Below are positions 3,427 to 6,104 of a stretch of 64,000 nt of DNA, in pieces (the first letter of the stretch is position 1; each line of letters starts with the position of its first letter). The translations under genes and the position numbers were made by a program. Where the stretch lies: assembly GCF_003675875.1 (NCBI RefSeq), contig NZ_RCDI01000001.1:806001-870000 (forward strand). Reading direction: 5' to 3'. This DNA is from Halostella limicola. Lineage in GTDB: Archaea; Halobacteriota; Halobacteria; Halobacteriales; Natronoarchaeaceae. The notes beneath the pieces were generated by a model that ran no database searches, had not been told where the DNA came from, and saw only the letters and a program-made list of their open reading frames with translations.

Positions 3427-3951
3427 ATGGCCGACGAGGACCTCATCCAGGCGCTGCGGGACGCGGACGCCGTGAAGTTCGGCGAGTTCGAGCTCTCACA
3501 CGGCGGTACGAGCGACTACTACGTGGACAAGTACCTCTTCGAGACGGACCCCCGGTGTCTCGACCTGATCGCGGCGGCGTTCGCCGAGCGGGTCGGCGAC
3601 GCGAAACTCGGCGGCGTCGCGCTCGGCGGCGTGCCGCTCGTAGCGGTGACTGCGGTGAAGGCCGGCAGTCCCTACGTCATCGCCCGCAAGCAACAGAAGG
3701 AGTACGGAACGGCGAACCTCATCGAGGGCCGCCTCGACGAGGGCGAGGAGGTCGTCGTCATCGAGGACATCGCCACGACGGGCCAGAGCGCCGTCGATGC
3801 CGTCGAGGCGCTGCGCGACGCGGGCGCGACGGTCAACCGCGTGCTGGTCGTCGTCGACCGGCAGGAGGGCGGCGCGGAGAACCTCGCCGACCACGGCGTC
3901 GAACTGGAGGCGCTCGTCACCGCCGAGGAGCTGCTGGCCGAGCGCGACTAA
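3427..3951 (+). CDS. pyrE: Orotate phosphoribosyltransferase
   Basis: Transfers phosphoribose from PRPP to orotate, giving OMP in de novo pyrimidine synthesis. The ATG at 3427 gives 174 residues, typical for archaeal PyrE; the reading frame is open further upstream but that part is the hairpin array. The PRPP-binding signature [14 protein letters not shown] is near residues 102-115, and the flexible-loop region carries [17 protein letters not shown]-terminal [19 protein letters not shown] matches the orotate-binding part of the family. It is followed by 200 bases of non-coding leader before thrS, with no sign of co-transcription. Confidence 0.94.
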
Positions 3952-4023
3952 CCGCGGCTGCGGGAGAGGCGGGGCGAGTCCGGCGACCGTGAGACGCCCA
4001 CACAGCATCGCAACGCTTTTTCA

Positions 4024-4137
4024 CTCCCCACGCGAAGGTGGGAGCACGATGGCAGGTGTCCACTTTACAGGCCGGGCGTTCGCCCGCTTCTAACTACAGA
4101 CACCTGTCGATTCTCTCGCTGGCAACCACCGACCAGC
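4024..4137 (+). promoter_or_regulatory. Structured 5' leader of thrS
   Basis: Four inverted repeats lie in this leader. Arms 4024-4031/4038-4044 form a 7-bp stem with one bulged C that encloses the AGGTG ribosome-binding-like sequence of a small ORF. CAGGTGTC at 4053-4060 pairs perfectly with GACACCTG at 4099-4106. Inside that pair, CGGGCG and CGCCCG (spaced by TT, near 4073-4086) form a 6-bp hairpin. GCTGG/CCAGC at 4118-4122/4133-4137 can form a further stem just before the thrS start, whose GGGGTG lies at 4141-4146. The nested arrangement round a 14-codon ORF suggests post-transcriptional control; where the transcript starts is unknown. Confidence 0.5.
4049..4093 (+). CDS. Candidate 14-residue leader peptide upstream of thrS
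   Basis: An ATG-to-TAA frame encoding MAGVHFTGRAFARF, 58 bases before the thrS start. AGGTG at 4036-4040 is spaced eight bases from the ATG and matches the core of the haloarchaeal anti-Shine-Dalgarno. The frame contains only one Thr codon, so classical attenuation by threonine starvation is not obvious. The coding span is almost completely enclosed by the perfect 8-bp inverted repeat 4053-4060/4099-4106. It may be a regulatory leader peptide, or the coding frame may be incidental to an RNA structure. No similar peptide is recognised from memory. Confidence 0.4.
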   Translation: MAGVHFTGRAFARF

Positions 4138-4151
4138 CAGGGGTGTAACCA

Positions 4152-6104
4152 ATGTCACAGGAAGCAGACTCAGACCGAGACCAGATCGCAGTCGTACTAC
4201 CGGACGGTTCCGAACTCTCCGTCGACAGGGGCGCGAGCGTCGAGGACGTGGCCTACGAGATCGGCCCGGGCCTCGGCCGCGACACCGTCGCCGGCCGCGT
4301 CGACGGCGAACTCGTCGCCAAGGAGGAACCGATCTACGAGGACGGCGCGGAGATAGAGATCGTCACGGAGGGCTCCGACGACTACCTCGAAGTCCTGCGC
4401 CACTCCGCCGCGCACTGTCTGGCGCAGGCCGTCGAGCGCCTCTACGACGACGTGCAGCTAGCCATCGGCCCGCCGACCGACGAGGGCTTCTACTACGACT
4501 TCGACGACCTCGACGTCGACGAGGACGACCTCGACCGCATCGAGGCCGAGATGGAGGAGATCGTCGCCGAGGACTACGAGATCGAGCGCGAGGAGGTCTC
4601 GATCGAGGAGGCCCGCGAGCGACTCGCCGACCAGGAGTACAAGCTGGAACTCCTAGAGGAGTTCGCCGAGAACGGCGAGACGGTCACCTTCTACAAGCAG
4701 GGCGAGTGGGAGGACCTCTGTGCCGGCCCGCACGTCGAGTCCACCGGCGAGGTCGGCGCGGTCGAACTGCTCGAGATCGCCGCCGCCTACTGGCGCGGCG
4801 ACGAGGAGAACCCGATGCAGACCCGCATCTACGGCACGGCCTTCGAGGACGAGAGCGACCTCGAGGAGTTCCTCGAACGCAAGCGCGAGGCCGAGCGCCG
4901 CGACCACCGGAAGATCGGCTCGGAGATGAACCTCTTCTCCATCCAGGACGTCACCGGGCCGGGCCTCCCGCTGTATCACCCGCCGGGCAAGACCATCCTG
5001 CGCGAGCTGGAGTCGTTCGTCGAGTCGCTCAACCTCGACGCCGGGTACGAGTACGTCGAGACGCCCCACGTGTTCAAGACCGACCTGTGGCAGGAGAGCG
5101 GCCACTACGAGAACTACCAGGACGACATGTTCATCTTCGACGTGGGCGACGACGAGTACGGCCTCAAGCCGATGAACTGCCCGGGCCACGCCACCATCTT
5201 CGACGACAGCTCGTGGTCCTACCGCGACATGCCGATCCGCTACGCCGAGAACGGGAAGGTGTACCGCAAGGAGCAGCGCGGCGAGCTCTCCGGGCTCTCC
5301 CGCGTCTGGGCGTTCACCATCGACGACGGCCACCTGTTCGTCCGCCCCGAGGGGATCCAGAGCGAGGTCGAGCAGATCATGGACATGATCGACGAGGTGC
5401 TGTCGACGTTCGACCTCGAGTACGAGGTGAGCCTCGCCACCCGCCCCGAGAAGAGCGTGGGGAGCGACGAGATCTGGGAGAAAGCGGAGTCCCAGCTCGA
5501 GGCCGTCCTCGAGGAGCGCGAGATGGAGTACGAGATCGAGGAGGGCGACGGCGCGTTCTACGGCCCGAAGATCGACTTCGGCTTCGAGGACGCCATCGGC
5601 CGGACCTGGGACGGCCCCACCGTCCAGCTCGACTTCAACATGCCCCAGCGGTTCGACCTCTCGTACGTCGGCGAGGACAACGAGGAGCACCGCCCGGTGA
5701 TGATCCACCGCGCGCTGTACGGGAGCTACGAGCGGTTCTTCATGGTGCTCATCGAGCACTTCGAGGGCAAGTTCCCGTTCTGGCTCGCCCCCGAGCAGGT
5801 CCGTGTCCTGCCGATCAGCGACGCCAACATGGAGTACGCCCGCGAGGTCGCCGACGAGTTCGACGAGTTCCGCGTCGAGGTCGACGACCGCGACTCCACG
5901 CTCGAACGGAAGATCCGCGCGGCCCACGACGACCGCGTCCCCTACCAGATCATCGTCGGGGACGACGAGGAGGCGGATGGCAACATCGCCGTGCGCGACC
6001 GCAAGGAGCGCCAGGAGTACGACGTCGAGATCGACGCGTTCCGCGATCACCTCCGCGCGGAGGTCGACGAGCGCCGGGCCGACCCGGACTTCCTCGACGA
6101 CTGA
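4152..6104 (+). CDS. thrS: Threonyl-tRNA synthetase
   Basis: Charges tRNA-Thr with threonine and edits mis-attached serine. The 650-residue protein has an N-terminal TGS domain (about residues 10-72), a second-additional (editing) domain with HSAAH near 83-87 and DLCAGPH near 194-200, the class II core with LKPMNCPGH (zinc-binding Cys) and [11 protein letters not shown], motif 3 in [13 protein letters not shown], and a C-terminal anticodon-binding domain starting at EQVRVLP. The editing domain is the bacterial type rather than the deacylase-like domain of many archaeal enzymes, as is usual in haloarchaea. GGGGTG nine bases ahead supports the ATG at 4152. The leader is unusual (see 4024-4137). 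Confidence 0.96.

Follow-up and report, generated by a model that had tools for sequence, protein, structure and literature searches.

The window, a stretch of 64,000 nt of Halostella limicola DNA, carries on its plus strand a thrS gene (4152–6104) for a bacterial-type threonine--tRNA ligase of 650 aa (NCBIfam TIGR00418, 675.7 bits at a cutoff of 383.65). The leader of thrS occupies the interval between pyrE and thrS and includes a Shine-Dalgarno (SD) sequence, GGGGTG (4140–4145, plus strand), 6 nt 5' of the ATG at 4152. At the upstream end lies a TATA-like promoter element of the leader transcript, CTTTTT (4016–4021, plus strand), which represents a conserved CACAAYGCTTTT motif. Its first base is 33 nt away from the ATG of a small open reading frame (sORF) in 96 out of 116 leaders, and 31–34 nt in all of them. 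Because this TATA-like box stands at a fixed distance here as in the relatives, the transcription start is probably found 3–6 nt 5' of the sORF ATG, at about 4043–4046. Judged by sequence, the sORF thus has the closely and constantly spaced TATA box that is typical of leaderless mRNAs, and the thrS leader mRNA is probably near-leaderless, the transcript beginning almost at the sORF with no long leader before it. The original prediction had proposed a long structured leader; what stands of it is a structured, ORF-bearing and conserved element, and the long stretch preceding the sORF falls away. It had also described a stem (4024–4031/4038–4044) able to hide an AGGTG upstream of the sORF. Since the likely transcription start lies 3' of this stem, the stem is not expected in the RNA; furthermore, sister species (L003, L007) have already lost or altered both the AGGTG and the stem.

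The sORF (MAGVHFTGRAFARF; 4049–4093, plus strand) has 14 codons in frame 0, from the ATG at 4049 to the stop TAA at 4091–4093, and the comparison across leaders establishes it as conserved and not a chance ORF. Common to the leaders is the pattern M[AVLI]G..FT with an in-frame end. The in-frame start and stop (TAA, TGA or TAG) are kept in all leaders examined, at lengths of 10–18 codons, or 30 in insertion variants; the insertions, in-frame and 45–48 nt long, were found in two Natrialbaceae leaders (L013 and L102) in which the element is otherwise kept. Substitutions within the sORF are richest at third codon positions (90/55/16).

Codons 6 and 7 of the sORF, TTT ACA (Phe-Thr; 4064–4069, plus strand), are invariant across the leaders. 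When either codon was left free in the search pattern, only TTT and ACA came back (15/15 each), and the pair is also present in the divergent leaders L013, L102 and L119. In the genes of the window ACA makes up 1.4% of the Thr codons and TTT 4.2% of the Phe codons. The tRNA-Thr species GGU, CGU and UGU are represented by one gene each among the best-scoring 30 of 44 tRNA loci. Given that ACA is very rare, stands 5' of thrS and has no substitute in any leader, the charging of tRNA-Thr(UGU) would be the natural signal of the leader, and we propose TTT ACA as a slip site followed by a hungry Thr codon. An internal SD-like sequence, AGGTG (4054–4058, plus strand), is located 5 nt 5' of the TTT codon. 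Its GGTG occurs in all pattern-found leaders, a count that is partly fixed by the search patterns themselves; it is absent from leader L013 and altered in leader L102. This AGGTG may serve as an SD-like pause signal holding UUU in the P site.

The RNA can form three helices, P1 to P3. P1 pairs a 5' arm, GGCAGGTGTC (4051–4060, plus strand), which comprises sORF codons 1–4, with a 3' arm, GACACCTGTC (4099–4108, plus strand), directly 3' of the sORF stop. It contains the perfect 8-bp inverted repeat 4053–4060/4099–4106 recognized in the original prediction, extended to 10 bp with one G-U (4051–4060/4099–4108). The two arms covary: covarying pair types were found at four positions, and the score of P1 itself was 16.85, above the maximum of 16.22 in 300 permutations. 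MAFFT alignment A1, which is non-structural in the P1 3' arm, was left out of the pair counts. Inside the repeat, right after the Thr codon, the hairpin P2 (CGGGC-GTTC-GCCCG, 4073–4086, plus strand), predicted earlier as well, is found in nearly all leaders, its stem and loop sequences varying from one to another; it was lost in Halovenus. The further stem expected before thrS is likewise real and belongs to P3 (4112–4143, plus strand), in whose predicted fold GCTGG/CCAGC (4118–4122/4133–4137) is joined by a pairing of 4112–4116 with 4139–4143 on the thrS SD. In the window's family this pairing with the SD is kept, with base changes; the homologous hairpin of the Natrialbaceae, CCGNNNGCTG/CAGCNNNCGG, does not cover an SD. 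Relative to its base composition, the leader has an only mildly unusual fold energy (z about -2.0); the comparative evidence for its conservation, unlike fold energy alone, is strong. Thus, upstream of thrS in the relatives both the ORF and the stems are conserved. The TTT ACA pair, the internal AGGTG at 4054–4058, the covering of the thrS SD by a hairpin and the frame constraint described below were not part of the earlier description.

The leaders of Natrialbaceae (for instance L054 and L059) hold in addition R4 (GCGGACRCC), a second complement of sORF codons 3–5, about 40 nt 3' of the P1 3' arm. R4 covaries with codon 5 (CGC/GCGGAC, CGT/ACGGAC, TGC/GCAGAC) and competes with the P1 3' arm for the same sORF arm. 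It may be a pseudoknot or a competing structure.

A strict leader pattern, ATGGYAGGTGKCNNNTTTACA, matched 111 out of 392 Halobacteriales genomes, once per genome, and never matched in the reversed control. A looser pattern added 12 genomes, which belong to two further families. All 82 extracted copies of the strict pattern stand 5' of a thrS gene, always of the bacterial type, and their distance to the thrS start, where this could be placed, is 90–369 nt. Among 84,980 species genomes scanned, matches were found in Natrialbaceae, Halostella, Halovenus, Haloarchaeobius, Halorubellus, Salinarchaeum and Halosimplex. The scan gave 13 other copies of the pattern, nearly all bacterial, with no thrS downstream; these look like chance matches and were not accepted as true leaders. 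Other families possess thrS without the leader, and on the ThrRS tree the leader occurs on two deep, separate clades. In two Natrialbaceae (G196 and G343; loci L117 and L114) the leader is absent and thrS is only about 30% identical to that of the window. One genome (G037) has two bacterial-type thrS copies (L103, L119), one leaderless and the other preceded by an sORF leader, an arrangement that looks like one constitutive and one regulated copy.

Spacing between the sORF ATG and the thrS ATG turned out to be constrained. It is a multiple of three in 94 out of 112 leaders. Counted by lineage representatives, divergent leaders included, it is 0 mod 3 in 53 of 69 (p 1.8e-13), and counted by distinct spacing lengths in 37 of 53 (p 6e-8), these p values and those for stops below being optimistic, since the lineages are related. 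The spacing mod 3 is kept in 123/128 close pairs, though single-base indels occur; some of the leader indels lie in CAGCCA-like repeats, which may slip by 3 or 6. Between the sORF stop and thrS the substitutions show no codon phase (433/384/413). Because the spacing is kept mod 3 while substitutions lack codon phase, it is a reading frame that is maintained here and not a peptide; a functional long +1 peptide was considered and appears unlikely, as the +1 product is without protein-coding selection. The window and nine other lineages have a spacing of 1 mod 3.

The distribution of stops points to the +1 frame. Among 65 lineages whose leaders do not exceed 240 nt, stops at a distance of over 30 nt 5' of the thrS ATG were found in none (0/65) in frame +1, in 6/65 in frame 0 (p 0.03) and in 15/65 in frame +2 (p 2e-5); the four leaders longer than 240 nt do carry earlier +1 stops. 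In the window the +1-frame extension after UUU (CAG GCC ... GTG TAA; 4068–4148, plus strand) runs to a TAA at 4146–4148, that is, the first +1 stop is at -6, 3 nt before the thrS ATG; in Halostella the positions are -6 and -5. In one genus, whose nine leaders range from 162 to 270 nt, eight have the stop overlapping the thrS start as ATGA. ATGA is not special to the leader, as leaderless thrS genes also begin with ATGAGC. In many other leaders the first +1 stop follows 13–49 nt inside thrS, and 22–37 nt inside in many Natrialbaceae. A +1 stop inside thrS is present in 37/41 cases without an upstream +1 stop, compared with 5/12 with one (p 0.001). Where the spacing departs from 0 mod 3, a +1 stop before the thrS ATG is more frequent (10/16 lineages versus 13/51 of the others, p 0.014); leaders L034 and L087, also among these lineages, show an in-frame fusion to thrS. 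A close relative (L002) has an insertion of about 80 nt, stem-loop-like, between sORF and thrS, through which the +1 frame is still open to a stop just 5' of thrS. A conserved candidate shift site with a selected open +1 frame, as known from prfB, is hence what the leaders display (TTT ACA invariant, +1 open in 65/65 lineages), and it appears that the leader is translated in frame +1 as far as the start of thrS.

The element is best read as a conserved sORF leader for threonine-responsive, frame-dependent translational control of thrS. For the mechanism we favour, with a confidence that comes close to even, a ribosome-mediated sensor of charged Thr tRNA with a +1 slip at UUU-ACA and coupling to thrS. 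The near-leaderless mRNA would open with the sORF of 10–18 codons. With ample Thr-tRNA(UGU), the ACA at codon 7 would be read and the ribosome would arrive at the early frame-0 stop, leaving the remaining leader untranslated; this frame-0 termination would keep thrS low, in the window's family with the SD under P3. With scarce Thr-tRNA(UGU), the ribosome would wait at this pair, UUU occupying the P site and ACA the A site, and the AGGUG would hold it there. A fraction of the waiting ribosomes would slip by +1, from UUU to UUA, and continue in the +1 frame, which would open P3 and end at the thrS start (4146–4148 in the window), and thrS would be initiated by coupling to this +1-frame reading. 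The predicted trans-frame peptide of the window would begin with MAGVHF and go on as QAGRSPASNYR. A +1 slip at UUU-ACA would account at once for the kept ATG, the frame-0 stop, TTT ACA and the open +1 frame. Also in favour of it are the strict association of the leader with thrS (once per genome, always 5' of it, and gone in the two Natrialbaceae in which thrS was replaced) and leader L013, in which no +1-frame start codon precedes TTTACA. A point against it is that in moving from UUU to UUA the tRNA-Phe(GAA) re-pairs two of three bases only. R4 has no role in the frameshift model. The original prediction had left the choice between an attenuation-like and a translation-coupled control; the evidence points toward translation coupling, the coupling itself being something we infer.

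Among the alternatives, a leader-peptide attenuator without frameshift survives best, and we consider it unlikely yet worth keeping in mind. Here a stall at ACA would mask the P1 5' arm and free the 3' arm, altering the downstream fold or archaeal termination. A short ORF with a rare cognate codon does stand 5' of the gene, with an invariant Thr codon and with frame and stop maintained in 126 leaders, translation of the ORF being predicted; P1 covaries, R4 offers an alternative partner covarying with codons 3–5 in Natrialbaceae, and the leader of valS (see below) has an sORF in which GTA, a rare Val codon, is invariant and precedes a GC hairpin, without any frame constraint. However, an attenuator leaves the kept frame from sORF to thrS and the missing +1 stops unexplained, and no conserved terminator-like U tract was seen in the leaders. 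Folding of 102 leaders with a ribosome stalled at codon 7 gave no consistent change in the predicted access to the thrS start (62 up, 40 down), which speaks against the attenuator and also against the frameshift model, and for which a simple P1 switch of this access was rejected.

Less probable still is that the +1 frame constitutes a separate overlapping ORF, coupled to thrS and starting at an internal GTG (4056–4058), with which the frame-0 sORF would compete. All pattern-found leaders have such a GTG in frame +1, those of Natrialbaceae with a +1 stop TAG immediately 5' of it, and this reading accounts for the spacing mod 3 and for the absence of early +1 stops as well as frameshifting does. 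However, leader L013 lacks ATG, GTG and TTG in frame +1 before TTTACA, leader L102 has GTA at that position instead, the GTG is neither preceded by an SD nor 5'-terminal, and the invariant TTT and ACA as well as the kept frame-0 ATG and stop remain without explanation.

Very improbable is autorepression by ThrRS bound to a tRNA-like operator in the leader, the mechanism of the E. coli thrS operator: the thrS leader is structured and a hairpin covers the SD in the window's family, but no constant anticodon-like hairpin loop of the E. coli thrS type exists across the leaders, the P2 loops vary freely, and an operator could do without the ORF, which is nevertheless kept together with its frame. 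An N-terminally extended ThrRS made by read-through of the frame-0 stop, least probable of all, has in its favour that frame 0 is the thrS frame in 53/69 lineages and is contradicted by further frame-0 stops 5' of thrS in about 12 lineages, by the window and nine other lineages, which at 1 mod 3 are out of frame, and by the lack of amino-acid constraint between sORF and thrS.

The proposed sensor combines features of several known systems. In prfB, the gene of RF2, low activity of the product slows one codon, an internal SD-like sequence lies upstream, and the ribosome shifts by +1, resulting in negative feedback. A slow codon, an internal SD-like sequence (here 5 nt from the P codon), a +1 shift and the logic of negative feedback are what we propose for the thrS leader, too. 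However, the prfB shift occurs at a stop codon inside its own gene and makes RF2 directly, whereas the thrS leader would use a sense codon in a separate leader ORF and act via coupling. In the trp, his and pheL leader peptides, too, a short ORF precedes a gene for the metabolism of the amino acid that its codons specify; unlike these, the thrS leader has one such codon and no run, no terminator was found in it, and its downstream frame is conserved. T-boxes and the E. coli thrS operator also sense uncharged tRNA or ThrRS in leaders of synthetase genes. The leader described here differs from them in having no Rfam match, no conserved tRNA-like loop and a translated ORF that the data call for. 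Indeed, cmscan of 3950–4200 returned neither a T-box nor any other Rfam family at E up to 5, in line with the earlier statement that no T-box is present.

Similar in its course of events is the ermC leader with its ketolide-induced frameshifting, where, according to section 28 of the source, ribosomes on the leader ORF shift on a signal, read into the spacer and unfold the mRNA so that the main gene starts (PMC5009743). As described there, that case is bacterial, a drug induces it, the nascent peptide matters little and no cognate codon does the sensing (PMC5009743), whereas the thrS leader is archaeal, belongs to a synthetase gene and has an invariant rare cognate codon. In Haloferax volcanii, termination-reinitiation couples overlapping or close ORFs (PMC6728339, PMC10666635), and the +1 stop at the thrS start resembles this arrangement. 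By contrast, the ORF upstream of thrS would be reached only via a change of frame, and the overlap in Natrialbaceae is longer than typical. In Haloferax, ORFs must overlap or be separated by a very short gap to be coupled, and coupling is near zero at about 22 nt (PMC10666635); for the long Natrialbaceae overlaps, passing ribosomes that open the thrS start would fit better than strict reinitiation. For archaea, the openly searchable papers, to which the search was confined, report frameshifting by -1 in alpha-fucosidase, likely shifts of -1 or +1 in haloviruses and one suspected case in magnesium chelatase (PMC8211752, PMC5009743); no earlier description of leader-ORF control of a synthetase in archaea was found in them. 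The leader would be an amino-acid sensor of a kind not known from archaea in this literature. If true, amino-acid starvation would be sensed here by nothing more than codon choice and frame, in a leader that occurs on two deep thrS clades and is easy to test in Haloferax reporters; this would also bear on the control of tRNA charging in archaea without T-boxes.

A second synthetase gene has a comparable leader. In 28 out of 30 valS loci (L337–L357 and L360–L366; the valS identity is backed by a curated model) an sORF ends in GTA GGG nnn nnn TAG, mostly GTA GGG GCN NNN TAG. In the genome studied here, this leader immediately precedes the valS gene on the minus strand (G000:C2:1144780). The Val codon GTA is rare (1.1%) and adjoins a GGGGC/GCCCC hairpin which contains the sORF stop; in Natrialbaceae a CGCCCG/CGGGCG hairpin is located at the valS SD. 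A +1 model was rejected for valS, where the +1 frame meets TAG at once and the spacing is not kept mod 3 (11/11/7). Hence, leaders of this type do not share the frame constraint as a rule, which is a further point for a shift in the thrS leader. As far as these two sets of leaders indicate, haloarchaea use cognate codons in leaders more widely, and of the two genes only thrS follows the mod-3 rule. Taken together with valS, the thrS leader may represent a regulatory +1 frameshift in an archaeal leader ORF, with sensing of the charging of one Thr tRNA at a single rare codon and feedback on thrS by coupling, within an ORF-based control of synthetases that replaces T-boxes; this wider proposal we hold only slightly more tentatively than the mechanism for thrS itself. 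At the metS loci of two relatives of the window's genus (L305, L306) there is, moreover, a 17-codon sORF, MxTTEIxGxYTRTGxRA, with a hairpin GCGGG..CCCGC, whose stop TAG lies one base 5' of the metS ATG.
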